Source of the DNA: Nitrospira moscoviensis
GTDB lineage: Bacteria; Nitrospirota; Nitrospiria; Nitrospirales; Nitrospiraceae
Assembly: GCF_001273775.1 (NCBI RefSeq)
Contig: NZ_CP011801.1
Coordinates: 1,776,001 to 1,840,000, forward strand
DNA length: 64,000 bases
Direction: 5' to 3'
In this document: piece by piece, positions 39,954 through 49,743 of the stretch
Numbering within the stretch: position 1 is the first letter of the stretch
Layout of the letters: each line of letters begins with the position of its first letter
The notes under the pieces: model-generated
What the model was told of the DNA's origin: nothing
What the model saw: the letters and a program-made list of their open reading frames with translations, nothing else
The model's database searches: none
Position numbers and translations under genes: made by a program

Positions 39954-40041
39954 TTCCCATCTCCAGTGCTTCACTCGCCGCTTGGCCGCGCCGGTCAAGC
40001 GGGCGTTGATGCGTTTGTTCAACGCGGACTGGAGGTGTCGC

Positions 40042-41382
40042 ATGGACGACTCACGCGTTTGGAATGGCAGCGGTTGCATTGCCGGTTGTCTTCTTTCCAT
40101 GACCATGTTCTTCCCGGGGTTCTTGTGGGCGGCGGAGACCGGCAATCCGCTGTCTGCAGACGGAACGACACATGGCAGCCACACAGAGCCACGCATCGGT
40201 CTTGGCGGTTTGATCGACGAGCTGGAAGCCGCCAACCCGGAGATCAAAGCCGCGCGGCAGCGGTGGGAGGCAGCCAAGGCGGTGGTGCCTCAAGTCCAGA
40301 CATTACCCGATCCCAAGCTGCAGCTCGGCTATCAGCGGATGCCCATGGTGCCTCCCGTTGTGGAAGGCGCCATGTACGGATTCGGGCAAGACATTCCATT
40401 TCCCGGAAAACTCAGGCTCCGAGGCGAGGTGGCGGAACGCGACGCCGAACGGCTTGAGCAGGAGTATCAGGCGACCCGCCTCAGGCTGATCGCGGCCTTA
40501 AAAGAGGCCTACTACAGCCTGCATTTCGTCCACAAAAGCATCGAAATCGTCGGCAGCAACAAAGCGTTGCTGATGCAGTTCGAGAAGACGGCCAAGGCGC
40601 GGTACAGCGTGGGCCAAGCGGCGCAGCAGGATGTGTTCCGGGCGCAGGTGGAAATCTCGCGCGTCCTCGATCGGCTGGCGGTCTTGGATCAACAGATGGA
40701 AAGTCTCCATGCCGCCATCAATCGGCTCCTGAATCGCCCCCCCGCCGGACCGCTCGGCACTCCGGAAGAAATCCACACTACCATCCTCACGGTTCCATTA
40801 CACGAGTTGAATCGCCGAGCGGACGAATTGTCCCCCGCCTTGCGGGCCTCGGCGAAGGGCATTGATCGGTCGGAGCGATCCGTTTCGCTCGCCAAACGCC
40901 AGTACTTTCCCGATTTCGATGTCCAAGCACTCGGACTCCGGAACGATCGGATCAACGACAACGGCTACCAAGTCATCGTGGGCATCAAGATTCCCCTCTT
41001 TTATGAATCGAAGCAGAAACAAGGCGTGCGGGAAGCATTGGCGGGGCTCGAAGGAGCCCGGGAGGACTTCACCGCCACCAGGCAGGATCTCTTGTTTCAG
41101 GTGAAGGACGGGTTCGTCCAAGCCCAGCGAGCCGAGCGGCTGATCACCATCTTGCGTGACGCCATCATTCCGCAGGCCACGTTGGCGCTCCAAGCGGCCC
41201 AGGCCGGATACGCGGTGGGGAAAGTGGACTTTCTCACGCTGCTGAACAGCCTTCTGACGCTGCAGGACAGCCAGCTGGAACTCCATGGGGAAATGGTCAG
41301 TCACGAGCGGGCACTGGCCAGGCTCGAAGCGTTGACCGGCGGATCGTTGAACGCTCCGCTCCCGCAGAGGACATCCAGATGA
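40042..41382 (+). CDS. cusC: Outer-membrane efflux protein (CusC/TolC family)
   Basis: 446 residues. A signal peptide (GCIAGCLLSMTMFFPGFLWA) is followed by two OEP repeats. Typical segments are LEAANPEIKAARQRWEAAKA, LPDPKLQLGYQRMPM, LKEAYYSLHFVHKSIEIVG and, in the second repeat, LLFQVKDGFVQAQRAERLI with YAVGKVDFLTLLNSLLTLQD near the end. It should form the trimeric channel of the tripartite efflux pump. The ATG at 40042 is chosen for its TGGAGGTG box and because the signal peptide begins there. The stop overlaps the cusB start (ATGA). Confidence 0.9.
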   Translation: MDDSRVWNGSGCIAGCLLSMTMFFPGFLWAAETGNPLSADGTTHGSHTEPRIGLGGLIDELEAANPEIKAARQRWEAAKAVVPQVQTLPDPKLQLGYQRMPMVPPVVEGAMYGFGQDIPFPGKLRLRGEVAERDAERLEQEYQATRLRLIAALKEAYYSLHFVHKSIEIVGSNKALLMQFEKTAKARYSVGQAAQQDVFRAQVEISRVLDRLAVLDQQMESLHAAINRLLNRPPAGPLGTPEEIHTTILTVPLHELNRRADELSPALRASAKGIDRSERSVSLAKRQYFPDFDVQALGLRNDRINDNGYQVIVGIKIPLFYESKQKQGVREALAGLEGAREDFTATRQDLLFQVKDGFVQAQRAERLITILRDAIIPQATLALQAAQAGYAVGKVDFLTLLNSLLTLQDSQLELHGEMVSHERALARLEALTGGSLNAPLPQRTSR

Positions 41383-42635
41383 AGCATCGGCGAGTGGTCA
41401 TCGTCGGACTGGTAGGCTTCATCGCCATTGCGGCCCTAGGGGCCGCGCTGTTCCGGTCCATATTGTTCCCGCCGGGAGATTCGCGATCGGGAACCATGCA
41501 GGACATGCCCGGCATGGACCGACCGCGCGATGAGTCTGGCTCACCGAAGGCGTCCGAAGCCATGCCGGATATGGAGGGCATGCAGCAGCAGGCGGAGAAC
41601 GCGAAGGCGACTGAATCGGGAATGGTGGTGGTTCCGCAAGAGCGGCTGCAGACGATCGGCGTGCGCTATGAGCCGGTGACAGTCCGTCCCCTTGAAAAAG
41701 TCGTCCGGACGGTCGGGCGCGTGACGCCGGATGAGCGCCGCCTGGCCAAAGTCACCATCAAATTCCACGGCTGGATCGAACGGCTCTTCGTCAGCGCGAC
41801 CGGGGATCACGTGAAGAAGGGGCAGGAGCTGTTCACCATTTATAGCCCGGACTTGGTGGCGACACAGGAGGAATATCTGCTGGCGCTTCAGGGCAGAAGG
41901 CAGCTCGGAGAAAGCGAGTTCCCGGAGGTGGCCCGCAGTTCGCACGAATTGCTCAAGGCGACGCGGCATCGCTTACATCTCTGGGACATCACGGACGACC
42001 ACATCCGGGATTTGGAGCGGACGAAGCAGGTCACCAAGACCTTGCCGATCCATTCACCCATTACCGGCACGGTGATTCGCAAGGAAGTGCTGCAAGGCAC
42101 CCATGTGGAGCCGGGCGAAGAGTTGTATACCATCGCGGACCTGTCGCACATCTGGGTCCTGGCCGACATCTACGAGTACGAGCTGCCGTTTGTGAAGGTC
42201 GGCCAGCAGGCGGCCGTCACCCTGTCCTACGATCCCGGCACGGTCTTCACCGGCCGCGTGGGGTTCATCTATCCCACGTTGGACCCGAAAACCCGCACGG
42301 CGAAAGTGCGGTTCGAGCTGGACAACCCGGACGACAAACTGAAACCCGACATGTACGCCAACGTGGAATTGCGGGTCGATGTGGGCGCCCGCCTGGCGAT
42401 TCCACAGGAAGCCATCATCGAGTCAGGACACAAGCAGATCGTGTTTCTCCATCACGGCGGCGGGCGGCTCGAGCCGCGCTTGATCAAGACCGGCGTCCGA
42501 ACCGGCGAATGGACCGAAGTGCTGGAAGGCCTCAAGGAAGGCGACCACATCGTCACCTCGGCCAATTTCTTGATCGACAGCGAAAGCCGCCTGAAGTCGG
42601 CCGTCGACAGCATGGGCGGGATGGGCATGAAATAG
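41379..42635 (+). CDS. cusB: Periplasmic adaptor of RND metal efflux (CusB family)
   Basis: 418 residues. An N-terminal anchor (RVVIVGLVGFIAIAALGAAL) is followed by a methionine-rich stretch (MQDMPGMDRP, then MPDMEGMQQ), which fits Cu(I)/Ag(I) binding. The adaptor domains follow: KVVRTVGRVTPDERRLAKV (barrel), GWIERLFVSATGDHVKKGQE (lipoyl-like), a helical hairpin with QEEYLLALQGRRQLG, and the barrel/membrane-proximal part IPQEAIIESGHKQIVFL. It would connect CusA to CusC. Its start overlaps the cusC stop; a 90-base gap with a perfect hairpin separates it from cusA. Confidence 0.9.
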   Translation: MKHRRVVIVGLVGFIAIAALGAALFRSILFPPGDSRSGTMQDMPGMDRPRDESGSPKASEAMPDMEGMQQQAENAKATESGMVVVPQERLQTIGVRYEPVTVRPLEKVVRTVGRVTPDERRLAKVTIKFHGWIERLFVSATGDHVKKGQELFTIYSPDLVATQEEYLLALQGRRQLGESEFPEVARSSHELLKATRHRLHLWDITDDHIRDLERTKQVTKTLPIHSPITGTVIRKEVLQGTHVEPGEELYTIADLSHIWVLADIYEYELPFVKVGQQAAVTLSYDPGTVFTGRVGFIYPTLDPKTRTAKVRFELDNPDDKLKPDMYANVELRVDVGARLAIPQEAIIESGHKQIVFLHHGGGRLEPRLIKTGVRTGEWTEVLEGLKEGDHIVTSANFLIDSESRLKSAVDSMGGMGMK

Positions 42636-42725: not shown

Positions 42726-45700
42726 ATGGTTGCACGCATCATCGAGTTCAGCGCGAGGAACCGTTTCATCGTGTTCCTGCTCGTCTTCGCTTTTTCGGCC
42801 GTCGGGCTCTGGGCGATGTGGCAGACGCCGATCGACGCGCTGCCGGATATCTCCGATACGCAGGTCATCGTGTACACGACCTGGCCCGGCCGCTCGCCCG
42901 ATCTGATCGAAGACCAGATCACCTATCCGATTGTCACCGCCCTCCTGTCCGCCCCCAAAGTGACCGTCGTCCGCGGCTTCTCGGACTTCGGCTACTCGTA
43001 TGTCTATGTCCTGTTCAAAGACGGGACCGACATCTATTGGGCTCGGAGCCGCGTGCTGGAATACATGAATCAGTTGGCCGGCCGGCTGCCGGACGGCGTC
43101 ACCCCCCAGCTCGGTCCCGACGCGACGGGAGTCGGCTGGGTGTACCAATACGCGCTCGTCGATGAATCGGGACAACAAGACCTGGCGTCGTTGCGCAGCT
43201 TTCAGGACTGGTACCTCCGCTACTGGCTGCGCGCGGTGGAAGGGGTGGCGGAAGTGGCGAGCGTCGGCGGCTTCGTCCGCCAGTACCAGGTCAACCTCGA
43301 TCCCACGAAGGTCCTCGCCTACCGCCTGTCCATTCCCTCGATCGTGGAGACGATCAGACAGAGCAACAACGACGTCGGCGGCCGCGTCGTGGAGTTTTCC
43401 GGGATCGAATACGTCGTCCGCGGGCGGGGCTACATCAAGAAGACGGAGGACATCGAGAAGATCGCCGTAAGCGTAAACGAGAACGGTACGCCGATTTTGT
43501 TGCGCGACGTGGCGACCGTGCGGCTCGGACCGGACATGCGGCGAGGTCTCGTGGACCTGGACGGCAAGGGCGAAGTGGTGGGCGGCATCGTCGTCATGCG
43601 GTTCGGCGAGAACGCGGTGACCGTGATCGAGAGGGTGAAGGCCAAGCTCAAGGACCTCGAACCTTCCATGCCGAAGGGCGTGAAGGTGGTCGGGGTGTAT
43701 GATCGCAACGACCTGATCCGCGAATCGATCGCCACGGCGAACGAAAGCCTGCTGGAGGAACTGCTGGTCACGGCGCTCCTGATCGTCGCGTTTCTGCTGC
43801 ATGTGCGTTCCGCCGTCGTGCCGATCCTGACGCTGCCGATCGCGGTCCTGATCGCCTTCATTCCGATGTACCTGATGCAGATCGGCATCAACATCATGTC
43901 GCTCGGCGGGATCATCGTCGCGATCGGCGACATGGTCGATGCCGCCATCGTCATGGTGGACAACGCCCACAAGCGCTTGGAAGAGTGGGAGCGCGACGGG
44001 CGCCGAGGCGAGCGGCTGCAAGTCCTCATCGATTCGGCGAAGGAAGTCGGGCCGGCGATTTTTGCCTCGGTGCTGGTCATCGCGATTTCGTTCATCCCGG
44101 TCTTCGCCCTGGAAGCCCAGGAAGGGCGGATGTTCAAGCCGCTGGCTTGGACCAACAATCTCGCCATCGCCATGTGCGCCGTGCTCGCGATCACGTTGGT
44201 GCCGGCCTCGCTGCCGACGTTCATCCGGGGACGGATTGTCCCAGAGCGGCGCCACCCGGTGAGCCGGGGCTTGCAAGGCATGTATGCGCCGCTCTTGCGT
44301 TGGACGCTGGAGCACCGGGGCACCGTGGTCCTGCTGGCCGCGGGGCTCCTGCTCAGCATCGTGCCGGTCTATCAGCGTATGGGCTCCGAATTCATGCCGC
44401 CGCTCTACGAAGGGACCATGCTGTACATGCCTACGACGCTGCCGGGATTGTCCGTCACCGAGGCGGGCCGGCTGCTCCAGATCATGGATCGCAAGCTGCG
44501 AGCATTTCCGGAAGTGGAGCATGTCTTCGGGAAGGCCGGCCGGGCGGAAACCTCCACCGACCCGGCGCCGTTCAGCATGATGGAAGTGATCGTGGAGCTG
44601 AAACCGAAGGACCAGTGGCGCCCCGGCCTGAGCTATGAAGGCCTGGTCGACGAGATGGACCGGGCGCTGCAATTTCCCGGCGTGACCAACGCATGGACCA
44701 TGCCGATCCGAAACCGGATCGATATGCTCACCACCGGGATCCGCACGCCGGTGGGCATCAAGATCTTCGGCCCGGACCTCAAGCAGATAGAGCGACTCGG
44801 CGAGCACCTGGAGATGGTCCTCAAAGACGTCCCCGGTACACGGAGCGTGTATGCCGAGCGAGTCTCCGGCGGGTACTACCTGGATTTTGACATCAACCGA
44901 GACGAGATCGCCCGCTATGGCCTCACGCTGATGGACGTGGGCCGGACCATCGAAACCGCCATCGGCGGCGAAAACATCGCGGCCACCATCGAAGGACGGG
45001 AGCGGTATCCGATCAATGTGCGCTATCTCCGAGAGCTACGGGACGATCCGCAAAAACTCCAAAGGGTCTTGGTTCAAACGCCGACCGGCGCACAGGTGCC
45101 GCTGGCGCAACTCGCCACGTTGCGGTTTGTCAGCGGCCCTCCGATGATCCGGGATGAGAACGGCATGCTGGCCGGCTACGTCTTCCTGGACATGGCCGGT
45201 CGCGACGTGGGGAGCTACGTGGACGATCTCAAGCAGGCAGCGGCGGCGAAGGTGCAACTGCCGCCCGGCTATACGATCGTCTGGTCGGGGCAATATGAGT
45301 TCATGGAGCGGGCGAAAGAGCGACTGAAGCTCGTGGTGCCGCTGACGCTCATCATCATCTTCGTCGCCTTCTACTTCACGTTCCGTTCAGTCGCCGAGAC
45401 CTTCATGGTGATGGTCGGCGTGCCGCTCTCGCTGGTGGGCGCCGTCTGGTATCTGTCGGTGCTCGGATACAACATGAGCATCGCCGTGTGGGTCGGGATG
45501 ATCACCGTGGTGGGGACGGCGGCGGAAACGAGCGCCGTGATGTTGGCCTATCTGGACGAAGCCTGCGCGCGGCGCAAAGCGGCGGGCCGGCTCAAGACGG
45601 TGCAAGACGTCATAGATACGGTCCACATGGGCGCCGTGGAACGCATCAGGCCGATGGCGATGATCGGGTTCGTGGACGTGATCGGCCTGTTTCCGGTCAT

Positions 45701-45884
45701 GTGGGCCACGGGTACCGGCGCCGACGTGATGAAGCGCATCGCCGCCCCGCAGGTCGGCGGGGTCTTCTCCGCCATGATCCTGACGCTGTTCGTCATCCCG
45801 CCCGTCTACGTGATGTGGCGGTGGTGGAAAGAACGGACGTCAGGAGGCGGAGGTGACGGAAATGGAAGTGACGGGATTCGCTAG
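42726..45884 (+). CDS. cusA: Heavy-metal RND efflux pump (CusA family)
   Basis: 1052 residues, the proton-driven inner-membrane pump of a Cus-type tripartite system. Twelve membrane segments in the RND layout are visible; the first is FIVFLLVFAFSAVGLWAM, and clusters are near 340-540 and 870-1040. HME-RND motifs include YSYVYVLFKDGTDIYWARSR, ISFIPVFALEAQEGRMF, and the proton-relay region IGDMVDAAIVMVDNAHK. The porter segment MPIRNRIDMLTTGIRTPVGI matches CusA/SilA better than CzcA, so Cu(I)/Ag(I) is the likelier substrate. It ends overlapping by 4 bases with a convergent small gene. Confidence 0.93.
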   Translation: MVARIIEFSARNRFIVFLLVFAFSAVGLWAMWQTPIDALPDISDTQVIVYTTWPGRSPDLIEDQITYPIVTALLSAPKVTVVRGFSDFGYSYVYVLFKDGTDIYWARSRVLEYMNQLAGRLPDGVTPQLGPDATGVGWVYQYALVDESGQQDLASLRSFQDWYLRYWLRAVEGVAEVASVGGFVRQYQVNLDPTKVLAYRLSIPSIVETIRQSNNDVGGRVVEFSGIEYVVRGRGYIKKTEDIEKIAVSVNENGTPILLRDVATVRLGPDMRRGLVDLDGKGEVVGGIVVMRFGENAVTVIERVKAKLKDLEPSMPKGVKVVGVYDRNDLIRESIATANESLLEELLVTALLIVAFLLHVRSAVVPILTLPIAVLIAFIPMYLMQIGINIMSLGGIIVAIGDMVDAAIVMVDNAHKRLEEWERDGRRGERLQVLIDSAKEVGPAIFASVLVIAISFIPVFALEAQEGRMFKPLAWTNNLAIAMCAVLAITLVPASLPTFIRGRIVPERRHPVSRGLQGMYAPLLRWTLEHRGTVVLLAAGLLLSIVPVYQRMGSEFMPPLYEGTMLYMPTTLPGLSVTEAGRLLQIMDRKLRAFPEVEHVFGKAGRAETSTDPAPFSMMEVIVELKPKDQWRPGLSYEGLVDEMDRALQFPGVTNAWTMPIRNRIDMLTTGIRTPVGIKIFGPDLKQIERLGEHLEMVLKDVPGTRSVYAERVSGGYYLDFDINRDEIARYGLTLMDVGRTIETAIGGENIAATIEGRERYPINVRYLRELRDDPQKLQRVLVQTPTGAQVPLAQLATLRFVSGPPMIRDENGMLAGYVFLDMAGRDVGSYVDDLKQAAAAKVQLPPGYTIVWSGQYEFMERAKERLKLVVPLTLIIIFVAFYFTFRSVAETFMVMVGVPLSLVGAVWYLSVLGYNMSIAVWVGMITVVGTAAETSAVMLAYLDEACARRKAAGRLKTVQDVIDTVHMGAVERIRPMAMIGFVDVIGLFPVMWATGTGADVMKRIAAPQVGGVFSAMILTLFVIPPVYVMWRWWKERTSGGGGDGNGSDGIR

Positions 45885-46087
45885 TTTTGAGGCGGCAAGC
45901 GACGAGATCTTGGTTTGTCGCTCAAGCGTTCGTAGACTTCGAACTTCGTTTCCATCTTGACAAGGCGATGGTCAAGATCCCTGAGCATGCGGGTGAGCTC
46001 ATGGATGTCGTCCGAGAGGGTCGTGACTCGCTCTTCCAGCGTGATGATCTTGCGCAGCGCGGCGAGCGCGTCTCCGGCCCAACTCAT
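45881..46087 (-). CDS. Small coiled-coil protein paired with an RHH protein
   Basis: 68 residues with a single coiled coil (LRKIITLEERVTTLSDDIHE, then MLRDLDHRLVKMETKFEVYE) and a basic end. Its ATG overlaps the stop of the ribbon-helix-helix gene upstream (ATGA), so the two are translated together. It is too short for a typical toxin enzyme. A partner or oligomerisation role is possible; no family was recognised. Confidence 0.5.
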   Translation of the reverse strand: MSWAGDALAALRKIITLEERVTTLSDDIHELTRMLRDLDHRLVKMETKFEVYERLSDKPRSRRLPPQN

Positions 46088-46353
46088 CGCTTTCGGCTCA
46101 CCAGGCTGCGCTTCAGGCTGTTAACCGCCGCGTGGGCTTCGTCGAGCTTGCTGATCATGCGCGTCAACGCTTTGTCGGCTTCCCCGGCCAGGAGACCGAG
46201 CTGTAGTTCGCCCTCGTCGTCACGTTCCAAATGGCGATCCAATGCCGTCCGAATTTCATCGGACACCGTGGCTTGGCGTTGCTTGGCACGGCGCGAGAGG
46301 GCTTTCTTCTGCGAGGGCGTGAGATAAATCGATGTCATGACTTTGGCTGCCAT
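46084..46353 (-). CDS. Ribbon-helix-helix (CopG/Arc-like) protein
   Basis: 89 residues. The N-terminal part VMTSIYLTPSQKKALSRRAK followed by ATVSDEIRTALDRHLE is a ribbon-helix-helix DNA-binding fold, which acts as a dimeric repressor or antitoxin. The rest is helical (LLAGEADKALTRMISKLDEA). The start at 46353 has an AAGGAG box; a longer version from 46386 is unsupported. The pair with the 68-residue gene looks like an autoregulated two-gene module. Confidence 0.7.
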   Translation of the reverse strand: MAAKVMTSIYLTPSQKKALSRRAKQRQATVSDEIRTALDRHLERDDEGELQLGLLAGEADKALTRMISKLDEAHAAVNSLKRSLVSRKR

Positions 46354-46525
46354 ATCTTCTCCTTGATCGAGACACACGTATATCACACATATGTTGCGCC
46401 ATCAACCAGCATGAGTCTTGCTCGATGGGCCGTCTGGAGACGACACTTCTCGATAGCTTGCTGGGCTTGGAAGCACGCGGTGTCATAAGGGATGAGGCGA
46501 TATACTAAGGGCCTGACATCACCGG

Positions 46526-46642: not shown

Positions 46643-46891
46643 TCAGACAATGTCCAATGGTCCATTGGCGTCGCGCCTCCGAGCCGCCATGGAAACGGCC
46701 TTGAATGCAAAGGGGGTCAGAAAGCCAGAGATCGAGATAGAGCGAATCGAAAACACCCAAAAAACCGTGATCGGAAAACGCCAATTGATCGTGGCCATGA
46801 GACGATGAAATCGATCATGTAGTCGCCACGCGAGATAGGCAGCTGCGAAGAAGGGAAGGCATACTTGAAAATAGTATGTTGAGGGTGGCGC

Positions 46892-48733
46892 ATGATCAGT
46901 GCCAAGGATCCAGTCTGCGGCATGACGGTCTTCAGGGAACAGGCAATGACCGCCGCCTATGAAGGCCGGACCTGGTATTTCTGTTCGGAGCTCTGCCGGC
47001 GATCCTTCCTGGCCGATCCCGAGCGATACCTGGGAGCACGTGAGCCGTCGGAAATTGTCAGCCCCTCCGCCCGGCGCATCGCCTACTTTACGATGGAGGC
47101 GGCGCTTGATCCTGCGATGCCGACGTACAGCGGAGGCTTGGGAGTCCTGGCCGGCGACACGTTGCGATCCTGCGCCGATCTTAAAATTCCCGTTGTGGGA
47201 GTGAGCTTGCTCTATTGGAAGGGCTACTTCGAGCAGAAGCTCGACGAATGGGGCAACCAACAGGAGCATCCGGTCACCTGGGAACCCGGAGGTCCGCTTC
47301 GTCTTCTGCCGGTCACGGTGTCTCTGACCATAGAAGGACGGACCGTCGTCGTCCAAGCCTGGCAGTACGAGCCCGTGGGTGTCACAGGCGGCAGGCTTCC
47401 GGTGCTTTTGTTGGATACCAATCGGCCCGAGAATGCCCCGGAAGACAGAGAGCTGACCTTTTGGCTCTACGGAGGTGACGAGCGCTACAGACTCGCGCAG
47501 GAAATCGTCCTCGGCATCGGAGGCGTCCGGATGCTCCAAGCCCTTGGGTACACCGAGATAGACCGGTTTCACATGAATGAAGGCCACGCCGCCTTATTGA
47601 CGCTTCAATTGCTACGGGATGCGACGCCGGTCGGTTCGACGGAGTGGGACTTCGCTGCGGTGAGGCGGCGCTGCGTCTTTACGACCCATACCCCGGTGCC
47701 GGCCGGCCACGATCAATTTGCCTATGATCTCGTCCGTTGCGTCATGGGAGACCTGCTCCCGCTGGAGGTCCTGCAGATGCTGGGTGGGAGGGACCGGCTC
47801 AACATGACGTTGCTTGGCTTCAACATGAGCACCCATATCAACGGCGTCGCCAAGCGACATGGCGAAGTTTCTCAAGAGATGTTTCCCGGATATGCCATCG
47901 ATTCCATCACGAACGGCATCCATTCGGTCGCCTGGACCTCCGAGCCGTTTCGGCAGCTCTATGATCGCGCGATTCCGGGGTGGCGAACCGATCCCTTCTC
48001 TCTTCGCTATGCGATCAGTCTGTCAAACCAGGACATCTGGGACGCTCACGTGCAGGCCAAGACGCGGTTGCTCGATGAGGTGAGGCGGCGCACGCAACGA
48101 CAGTTGAATCTTGACGCCTTCACGATCGGCTTCGCCCGACGGGCGACATTGTACAAACGGGCGGATCTGCTTCTGTCGGCTCCCCATGAATTGATCGAGA
48201 CGGTCAAGCAGGTGGGAGCTCTGCAGATCCTTTTCGCCGGTAAGGCCCATCCCAAGGATGAGCCCGGCAAGGAGATGATCCGGCGTGTCGTGCAAGCAGC
48301 CAAGCAGCTGGAACGGGATGTCACGATCCTCTACCTCGACAACTACGAACTGCTGCTCGCTCGACTGATGACCGCCGGCGTGGATCTGTGGCTCAACACC
48401 CCGCAACGGCCGTTGGAAGCCTCCGGCACGTCCGGCATGAAGGCGGCGCACAACGGCGTGCCAAGTCTGAGCGTCTTGGACGGGTGGTGGCTGGAAGGCC
48501 ACATCGAAGGCGTGACGGGCTGGTCGATCGGCTCACGAACCATGGCCCAGAAGCCCGATCAGCCGGAGGAGGCGCGAGAGCTGTATCAGAAGCTGCGCTG
48601 GACGATCATGCCGATGTACTACCGGTCGCGGGATCATTGGATCGATGTCATGCGGCAGACGATCGCGCTCAACGCCTCCTTCTTCAACACTCACCGCATG
48701 GTGCAGCAGTACGCGGCCAATGCGTATGTGTGA
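46892..48733 (+). CDS. YHS-domain::alpha-glucan phosphorylase fusion
   Basis: 613 residues. Residues about 5-47 form a YHS domain with DPVCGMTV (C9) and YFCSELCRRSF (C31, C35), a small metal-binding module usually found in copper transport proteins. From about residue 58 a short-type alpha-glucan phosphorylase follows: RRIAYFTMEAALDPAMPTYS with GGLGVLAGDTLRSCADL, then DRFHMNEGHAALLTLQLL, and the pyridoxal-phosphate lysine K517 in GTSGMKAAHNG. It would release glucose 1-phosphate from glycogen or maltodextrin in the cytoplasm. The junction is in one frame with no start between the parts. The neighbours are metal-related genes and not glycogen genes. Regulation of the enzyme by a metal is only a suggestion. 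Confidence 0.85.
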   Translation: MISAKDPVCGMTVFREQAMTAAYEGRTWYFCSELCRRSFLADPERYLGAREPSEIVSPSARRIAYFTMEAALDPAMPTYSGGLGVLAGDTLRSCADLKIPVVGVSLLYWKGYFEQKLDEWGNQQEHPVTWEPGGPLRLLPVTVSLTIEGRTVVVQAWQYEPVGVTGGRLPVLLLDTNRPENAPEDRELTFWLYGGDERYRLAQEIVLGIGGVRMLQALGYTEIDRFHMNEGHAALLTLQLLRDATPVGSTEWDFAAVRRRCVFTTHTPVPAGHDQFAYDLVRCVMGDLLPLEVLQMLGGRDRLNMTLLGFNMSTHINGVAKRHGEVSQEMFPGYAIDSITNGIHSVAWTSEPFRQLYDRAIPGWRTDPFSLRYAISLSNQDIWDAHVQAKTRLLDEVRRRTQRQLNLDAFTIGFARRATLYKRADLLLSAPHELIETVKQVGALQILFAGKAHPKDEPGKEMIRRVVQAAKQLERDVTILYLDNYELLLARLMTAGVDLWLNTPQRPLEASGTSGMKAAHNGVPSLSVLDGWWLEGHIEGVTGWSIGSRTMAQKPDQPEEARELYQKLRWTIMPMYYRSRDHWIDVMRQTIALNASFFNTHRMVQQYAANAYV

Positions 48734-48783: not shown

Positions 48784-49049
48784 ATGACGCGCTCCCTGGA
48801 GCGCCAGTTCGGCTCGAACCTCGACCGCGGCCTGACTCAGACGGAGGCCGAGCGTCGGCTTGCCTCGGCCCGGTCCGAACGAGCAGCCTGAGGCGCCGCA
48901 GCCTGCGCCTCTCACGATGTTTCTGACGCAATTCTCCGGCTTGATCATCTGGGTCCTGCTCGGCGCCGCGGTGGTGTCCGGTTTGTTGCAGGAATGGATC
49001 GACGCGGCGGCGATCGTGGCAATCATGATCCCGAACGCGTTGCTGTGTA
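48784..49049 (+). pseudogene. P-type cation ATPase, N-terminal fragment with frameshift
   Basis: The first frame reads MTRSLERQFGSNLDRGLTQT then EAERRLAS, the start of a type II P-type ATPase. Near 48870 the match moves to another frame with GPNEQPEAPQPAPLTMFLTQ and then FSGLIIWVLLGAAVVSGLLQ, EWIDAAAIVAIMIPNALL, the first two membrane helices. The gene breaks off at about 49050, where the thioredoxin-like gene of the opposite strand ends. All catalytic parts (DKTGT, TGD) are missing. Confidence 0.75.
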
Positions 49050-49328
49050 CTATGGCCGTCCGATCCCTGCGGCTTGGAGTGCGGCCGCATCAATCGGACC
49101 TCTACGGCAGCAGTCCAGCAGCCTGTCATCGACCGCCACCGCCGGGACGGCGGTCATGCCATAGCGGGCCGCTTTGTCCCGGCATTCGTTGGTCGCACAG
49201 CCTTCCCGAAGATCGTACACCTGCACTTCGCAAGTGGGGCAGGCGAGAGATTTCACGAGACTGACGGTCGTGGCACAGAGTGGACAACCGGACGTAAACA
49301 CTTCAACGCGTCGCTTGTGAGTCGTCAT
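49050..49328 (-). CDS. Cysteine-rich thioredoxin-like protein
   Basis: 92 residues with a thioredoxin/glutaredoxin-like start: VEVFTSGCPLCATT gives a CxxC at 15-18, and GMTAVPAVAVDD carries the cis-proline. Additional cysteines at 30, 33, 44, 49, 73 and 74 (LACPTC, CATNEC, LLDCC) are unusual for a redoxin and could bind metal. It overlaps the MerR-type gene upstream on the same strand by 26 bases, so both belong to one transcript. A role in handling a thiol-reactive metal is likely from context. Confidence 0.7.
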   Translation of the reverse strand: MTTHKRRVEVFTSGCPLCATTVSLVKSLACPTCEVQVYDLREGCATNECRDKAARYGMTAVPAVAVDDRLLDCCRRGPIDAAALQAAGIGRP

Positions 49329-49743
49329 TGTGCCTCCTCCTGTGTTCTTCCAAGTTGTGGATGATGGGACATCTCGCTTCCAGCGTGCCGCTCTCGCATG
49401 AACGGATCAACGTCCGGAGCGAGCGGCCGAGGGCCTGTAGTTGGCGCACTTTTCGGTTCACCTCGGCGAGCTTTTCACGCGCCTTTCGCTGCACCGCACC
49501 GCGCGGTGCCGAGGCATTCACGCGGAGATTCAGCAACTCCCTGATCTCGCGCAGGGTGAAGCCCAACGCCTGCGCGTTTTTGATGAAGTGCAGGCGCCGG
49601 ATTTCGTCTCGGCTATAGAGTCGATAGCCGGACGGTCGGCGAGCAATCGGCTTGAGAAGGTGAAGTCGCTCATAGTAACGAACCGTTTGCACGGTGATGC
49701 CGGTCGCTCCGGCCACTTGCCCGATTGTCAGCTCCGAGCTCAT
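49303..49743 (-). CDS. MerR-family metal-responsive regulator
   Basis: 146 residues. The N-terminal winged helix (about 5-72) is typical: LTIGQVAGATGITVQTVRYY, RRPSGYRLYSRDEIRRLHFI, GFTLREIRELL. A dimerisation helix precedes the metal loop with C116 and C125 (RSCESGTLEARCPII), spaced as C117 and C126 of Tn501 MerR. The position of MerR C82 is not cysteine (NASAPRGAVQ). It is therefore a relative of MerR/ZntR/CadR regulators with altered ligand set, and mercury specificity is doubtful. An overlong-spacer promoter with operator dyad lies just upstream and should drive this gene and the thioredoxin-like gene. Confidence 0.85.
   Translation of the reverse strand: MSSELTIGQVAGATGITVQTVRYYERLHLLKPIARRPSGYRLYSRDEIRRLHFIKNAQALGFTLREIRELLNLRVNASAPRGAVQRKAREKLAEVNRKVRQLQALGRSLRTLIRSCESGTLEARCPIIHNLEEHRRRHNDDSQATR

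Follow-up and report, generated by a model that had tools for sequence, protein, structure and literature searches.

Why should a glucan phosphorylase carry a YHS domain, and could that domain make glycogen use answer to metals? The question is raised by one gene in a 64,000-nucleotide stretch of the Nitrospira moscoviensis genome (contig NZ_CP011801.1, positions 1,776,001 to 1,840,000 of the forward strand; this whole stretch is called the window below, and coordinates count from its first letter). A first-pass annotation of the gene had offered two readings: glycogen use could be tied to metal status, or the domain could be a recent capture. The reading at which we arrived, partly by analogy, is that of a copper-responsive alpha-glucan phosphorylase belonging to heavy-metal (mainly copper) resistance islands, and we give it about an even chance of being right.

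The gene (46892..48733, plus strand) is a single uninterrupted frame of 613 amino acids, and inspection of the sequence places a ribosome-binding-site-like GAGGG (46881..46885, plus strand) 6 bases 5' of its ATG. The YHS domain (Pfam PF04945) occupies residues 5-49 (46904..47038, plus strand) with 52.5 bits against a gathering cut-off of 30.3 (E 5e-14), and is followed by a linker (residues 50-61; 47039..47074, plus strand) and by the catalytic part of a short alpha-glucan phosphorylase (residues 62-613; 47075..48730, plus strand), to which the NCBIfam model TIGR02094 was matched at residues 63-612 with 534.9 bits against a curated cut-off of 191.7, over model positions 1-598 of 600. No DUF3417 was reported in the 613-residue protein by the Pfam profile search. 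The pyridoxal phosphate (PLP) lysine, K517 (codon 48440..48442, plus strand), sits in the motif EASGTSGMK and is the same in all 101 aligned sequences; a phmmer match of residues 297-535 to residues 433-698 of the rabbit enzyme (1a8i) suggests that it corresponds to rabbit K680, provided that no gap follows K517. The in-frame joining of a YHS domain to a complete short-type glucan phosphorylase, and the identity of the PLP lysine, had been proposed in the first-pass annotation; both are borne out by the stop-free frame, by two profiles scoring above their cut-offs and by the invariance of the lysine, and we regard a fused, working gene as nearly certain.

The three YHS cysteines lie where the first-pass annotation had put them, at C9 (46916..46918), C31 (46982..46984) and C35 (46994..46996), and we add D6 (46907..46909, like the others on the plus strand) as a fourth proposed metal ligand, equivalent to D178 of the Mycobacterium phlei YHS adenylyl cyclase (PMC4626032). 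All four residues are unchanged in 19 of 19 Nitrospirota sequences (alignment A1), a count that is less circular because the rows were chosen by whole-length similarity; a separate listing by YHS pattern gave 29/30, a figure that is partly circular since the pattern itself requires most of the ligand set. One YHS cysteine is gone from the Bathyarchaeota copy (L084), which has an aspartate at the C31 position. Within three groups of close relatives the linker had a dN/dS (Nei-Gojobori) of 0.64-0.80, compared with 0.11-0.22 for the YHS domain and 0.11-0.14 for the catalytic part; over all 19 sequences, where synonymous sites are near saturation, the values in this order were 0.72, 0.12 and 0.09. 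As judged from these ratios, purifying selection acts on the YHS codons almost as strongly as on the enzyme, and the linker is nearly free. Low dN/dS and preserved ligands are not what an untranslated leader would show, and they answer both objections that the first-pass annotation had anticipated, namely a translation start downstream of the YHS part and a lack of cysteine conservation among homologues. An annotation artefact, in which translation begins after the YHS domain, has also to contend with the GAGGG before the first ATG and with conservation across phyla, and we treat its probability as practically negligible. By analogy with other domains of its kind, the YHS domain quite probably binds metal, and D6, C9, C31 and C35 may hold Cu(I) or another soft metal like it.

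An AlphaFold2 model built from 101 sequences (pLDDT 94.3, pTM 0.88) supersedes an earlier, poor model built from 19 sequences (pLDDT 63.7). Most of the YHS domain has pLDDT values of 90-95, and residues 51-54, within the linker, form the sole stretch below 50. The best Foldseek match was the glycogen phosphorylase of Segatella copri (9l6i; TM 0.84 by query), a TIGR02094 and GT35 protein that shares the core, the PLP lysine and the active-site motifs at 37% identity over 545 aligned residues; its 852-residue chain has about 100 residues before the core, whereas the fused protein lacks that part and has the YHS domain instead. The YHS part itself is hardly covered by the fold alignments: that with human liver phosphorylase first pairs model residue 50 with residue 65, and that with Escherichia coli MalP first pairs model residue 42 with residue 1. 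The first of these correspondences would put the YHS domain at the site of the animal enzyme's N-terminal arm, and the model, a single chain with a floppy linker, suggests that the domain takes the position filled in glycogen phosphorylase by the N-terminal regulatory arm. In the animal enzyme, serine 14 and some of the AMP control reside in that arm. The fused protein and the rabbit and human glycogen phosphorylases thus have a common fold, with an extra N-terminal domain at the animal enzyme's phosphorylation and AMP arm site; the fused protein is without the serine-14 arm, and a metal site would serve as its input domain. An Acidobacteria short phosphorylase (L088:4387-6603) has a Response_reg receiver domain (44.3 bits) in frame at its N-terminus, before the same core, so other input domains appear to be accepted at this end. 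Solved structures close to the YHS part were also sought, and the candidates were rejected: the best E value was 0.12, most hits were toluene monooxygenase and phenol hydroxylase chains, and ribosomal L24e came at E 0.68.

We found the full-length fused gene in 19 of 196 related genomes, the window's own included (loci L001 and L008-L025), all in two families of one order; two further genomes hold partial copies (G160, G168) and one an interrupted copy (G007). Two further relatives occur in the same 196 genomes: one, about 55% identical, is short and lacks YHS, and the other, about 44% identical, is the canonical form. In one locus (L042) a second YHS domain, closely like the fused kind, lies in a 290-residue frame and is possibly a broken second copy. 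Outside the phylum, the fused protein recurs on plasmids of Chroococcidiopsis, Aulosira, Leptolyngbya and Stanieria, with about 61% identity along 99% of its length (a fifth cyanobacterial plasmid record is from a second Leptolyngbya boryana strain); it is annotated as 'alpha-glucan family phosphorylase' in three of the four and as 'putative alpha-glucan phosphorylase' in the other, with YHS unmentioned. Scanning genomes of bacteria and archaea (at least 80 loci) brought in copies from Ignavibacteriales (L078), a deltaproteobacterium (L079), Candidatus Borrarchaeum (L080) and Bathyarchaeota (L084). A whole-genome search then gave a second Candidatus Borrarchaeum copy, so that this genome holds two YHS-phosphorylases (L210, L211), and the phylum of the Ignavibacteriales copy has a second genome with the fusion (2 of 198 genomes among the matches listed).

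Whether this distribution reflects one fusion or several was read from a tree of 104 catalytic parts from which the YHS domain had been removed. Twenty-three of the 27 fused rows (19 from Nitrospirota and four from cyanobacterial plasmids) form one clade with an SH-aLRT of 100, and the remaining four fall in three other positions. The YHS label requires four changes on the tree, a number as low as which was reached in none of 500 shuffles (mean 24.2), and four changes were again required in a set of 94 rows with two extra loci. A single fused clade was rejected (log-likelihood 404 lower, p-AU 1.08e-85). These figures apply to a set without six loci in which the core start motif is missing from the followed frame (L055, L056, L103, L107, L141 and L153), and the first tree further omits 13 rows that were partial, broken, duplicated or divergent, as well as six of the ten long forms. 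Four gains are the simplest history of the YHS label on these sequences; we consider a single old fusion followed by many losses less likely, as it is less economical and as one clade is rejected. A recent capture of the domain is contradicted by the conserved ligands, by the well-supported clade common to Nitrospirota and cyanobacterial plasmids, and by a fusion that arose or persisted in three further lineages. As far as the sequences allow us to judge, the fusion is old, selected and recurrent, and often lies beside metal genes.

The position of the gene between a Cus efflux operon and a MerR module, as first described, is upheld. Upstream on the plus strand lie an outer membrane efflux protein (CusC-like; 39982..41382), a CusB-like adaptor (41379..42635) and a CusA-like heavy-metal RND pump (42726..45884). 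The gap between the CusA stop and the phosphorylase ATG is 1,007 bp, both genes being on the same strand, and it holds two small minus-strand ORFs (45881-46386), one with a weak ribbon-helix-helix match and the pair possibly an antitoxin-like insert; cotranscription with the Cus operon is therefore doubtful, and a sigma-70-like promoter was looked for here and not found. Downstream are a degenerate piece of a P2-type cation ATPase (48836..49045, plus strand; 52-53% identity over 62-70 residues), which is whole in two other loci (L038, L053) and was perhaps broken upon arrival of the MerR module, and then, on the minus strand, a thioredoxin/glutaredoxin-like protein (49050..49328; a weak match, below cut-off) beside the MerR-family regulator itself (49303..49743).

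We scored linkage to metal genes more widely by the presence, within 6 kb, of CusA, CusB, a copper ATPase, a copper four-helix protein, a multicopper oxidase, DUF2933 or a stand-alone YHS protein. These markers were called by similarity to proteins from the window, other Nitrospirota loci and plasmid islands, and distant metal genes are missed as a result. In Nitrospirota, 13 of 19 fused loci had at least one marker, against 1 of 18 unfused short loci and none of 20 canonical ones; elsewhere, the counts were 3/8 for fused, 4/56 for unfused short and 3/4 for unfused plasmid loci. The six marker-free fused Nitrospirota loci are L039 (flank under 3 kb), L044, L046, L047, L049 and L050. Marker-free fused loci elsewhere (5 of 8) are L078, L080, L084, L157 and L159: a P2-type ATPase is in reach at L084 and further out at L080, and copper genes lie further out at both L157 (which also has a P2-type ATPase nearby) and L159. 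In a contrast test that leaves out long forms, the 13 rows omitted from the tree and eight rows with flanks under 5 kb (L039 among them), and for which the marker states of L188 and L210 were assigned by hand, 18 of 28 fused rows and 7 of 66 unfused rows had a marker. Only four independent contrasts are available (in random pairings about two agree and almost none oppose), which puts significance out of reach, and the trend toward metal linkage is not significant after allowing for kinship.

Around the cyanobacterial genes are copper ATPases, stand-alone YHS proteins, MerR, a multicopper oxidase and a copper-binding four-helix protein, with an S-adenosylmethionine (SAM) methyltransferase immediately upstream in three of the four loci. 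The deltaproteobacterial phosphorylase (L079) lies downstream of an HMA-HMA P-type ATPase and a cupredoxin, apparently in one operon, and one of the Candidatus Borrarchaeum genes (the second copy, L210) and an HMA-HMA ATPase gene are in divergent orientation, about 0.4 kb apart. At L207 and L208 the phosphorylase is followed by MerR, MerT-HMA and a MerA-like reductase, and a YHS-HMA ATPase lies about 5 kb before it. Downstream of the Ignavibacteriales gene (L078) are a heavy-metal-binding-domain protein, which was not counted as a marker, and an FtrD-like protein, and downstream of L080 and L084 are P2-type ATPases. Within Nitrospirota, an ICMT/PEMT-like membrane methyltransferase is near 12 of the 19 fused loci (for example, L041:12212-12952), often with DUF2933, and a GH57 glycoside hydrolase is near six; a phosphoketolase or acetate kinase gene is near one of the 19 fused loci and nine of the 18 unfused short ones. 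An ICMT/PEMT-like methyltransferase also recurs beside the fused genes on cyanobacterial plasmids. We conclude that the fused phosphorylase probably belongs to metal-resistance islands. The YHS domain is unnecessary for this link, because unfused short phosphorylases are in metal islands as well: on a Simkania plasmid (L161), an unfused GlgP starts two bases after CusA, with mercuric reductase next on the other strand. A defence function was also considered and found no support, as PADLOC gave no defence match.

The mechanism that we favor would run as follows. Cu(I) or a like soft metal would be held by the YHS domain through D6, C9, C31 and C35; from the position of the regulatory arm, the occupied domain would change phosphorylase activity, most likely switching it on, and under metal stress glucose-1-phosphate would be released from stored glycogen. 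Glucose-1-phosphate saves one ATP compared with free glucose, and this gain of one ATP per glucose would pay for efflux and reducing power. The precedent is the M. phlei YHS adenylyl cyclase, which is switched on by 1-10 uM Cu2+ with Mg2+ and by none of the other metals tried, and for which D178, C181, C204 and C208 are the proposed YHS ligands (PMC4626032). The spacing D6-x2-C9 and C31-x3-C35 equals that of the cyclase domain as given there, which is why we think that copper or a comparable metal may gate the phosphorylase, most likely by activating it. The two proteins are alike in their D-C-C-C ligands and in a short linker to the enzyme; they differ in that the M. phlei domain is C-terminal, its enzyme is a cyclase and the effect of copper on it was measured (PMC4626032), whereas for the phosphorylase such an effect is predicted. 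Allosteric activation by copper, which depends on this analogy, is in our estimation possible but somewhat short of probable. The coupling of glycogen to metal status proposed in the first-pass annotation is partly supported and may hold, fitting a recurrent fusion, conserved ligands, selection and metal-gene neighbours; its companion, the recent capture, is unsupported.

Other explanations share much of this evidence. The YHS domain could be a tether or a metal buffer, recruiting the phosphorylase to YHS copper ATPases or efflux proteins or sequestering metal, with catalysis unaltered. The same islands do contain stand-alone YHS proteins and YHS-bearing copper ATPases, and a linker that is free in sequence yet nearly constant in length (within Nitrospirota it hardly varies, and in the large fused clade it has about 12-13 residues) is compatible with a tether. 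In the archaeal copies, however, the end of the YHS domain runs directly into the first catalytic strand, an almost linkerless arrangement more in keeping with contact with the core than with loose tethering, and metal altered activity in the sole studied YHS enzyme that we found (PMC4626032); on balance a tether or buffer seems rather unlikely to us.

The fusion could also be a by-product of island recombination, YHS and phosphorylase genes being common enough in islands to fuse frequently, with a role for the domain that is only structural or in stability. Fusions do recur where both parts adjoin, and unfused short phosphorylases reside in metal islands such as the Simkania and Criblamydia plasmids, but purifying selection on the YHS domain nearly as strong as that on the enzyme, together with ligands invariant in all 19 sequences, makes such an origin an unlikely account of the domain. 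That the YHS domain holds zinc or iron constitutively, its link to copper genes being accidental, draws on the related TRASH domain of ribosomal L24e, which holds metal (Cd in the crystal, as told in PMC4626032), and on the absence of metal genes near some fused loci. Every fusion lineage has metal-transport neighbours, even if at two archaeal loci these are only P2-type ATPases, and we consider constitutive binding improbable. Regulation by metal remains our preferred reading of the YHS domain.

A literature search, with most subscription journals outside it, returned no paper joining a YHS domain with glycogen phosphorylase or phosphorylase; among the papers listed on YHS domains and copper, glucan phosphorylase or glycogen together with copper resistance, copper efflux clusters, phosphoketolase in heavy-metal islands, Nitrospira or Klebsiella plasmids, none concerned the fused protein. 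The parts are known, and the YHS-phosphorylase combination and its distribution appear to be undescribed in the literature searched. YHS-bearing copper P-type ATPases have the same small domain, in the same islands and the same genome, but are transporters and not sugar enzymes. If the favored mechanism is true, one protein would directly link metal stress to glycogen breakdown where animals have phosphorylation and AMP control, would help to account for the sugar enzymes carried by metal islands, and would offer a simple test bed for a small metal site governing a phosphorylase. It would also supply a candidate function for YHS domains, few of which have been assayed. Fused relatives tend to lie in copper and mercury resistance islands of both bacteria and archaea, and this suggests that some microbes link the consumption of their sugar stores with metal stress.

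A broader proposal is that islands bring their own metal-gated energy supply, in which a YHS-switched phosphorylase, joined in some islands by phosphoketolase and acetate kinase, would lead from glycogen to ATP while bypassing copper-poisoned enzymes such as GAPDH. In Staphylococcus aureus, GAPDH (PMC6350627) and PRPP synthetase (PMC10249872) are inhibited by copper, and some islands contain spare copies of these targets. A Criblamydia plasmid (L165) has a run of Cus efflux genes, a P-type ATPase, phosphoketolase, an unfused GlgP, PRPP synthetase, acetate kinase and a glucoamylase-family protein, and on a Pseudorhizobium plasmid a type II GAPDH precedes an unfused GlgP, with a heavy-metal ATPase about 6 kb away. 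A metal-gated bypass drawn from these two islands is speculative, and we rate it as doubtful.

In the window's own genome (one contig, 4.59 Mb) the canonical GlgP (L002, G000:C1:1120378-1124430) is split into two frames; the break, which could be decay or sequencing error, corresponds to about residue 475 in a relative of 730 residues. With the canonical gene broken in the assembly, our search found no uninterrupted alpha-glucan phosphorylase gene in this genome other than the fused one. The genome also holds one strong and one weak match to glycogen synthase, seven YHS domains above cut-off, and an acetate kinase-phosphoketolase pair with no phosphorylase within the surrounding 20 kb. Klebsiella plasmids are the commonest plasmid matches (263 of 534 records); among the matches listed, these and other enterobacterial plasmid proteins are of the canonical kind, on a separate branch, and in the two regions examined (L162 and L163) canonical glgP is part of a glgB-glgC-glgA-glgP-pgm operon. 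In the Citrobacter example (L163), this operon is flanked by a P-type ATPase and an ars operon.
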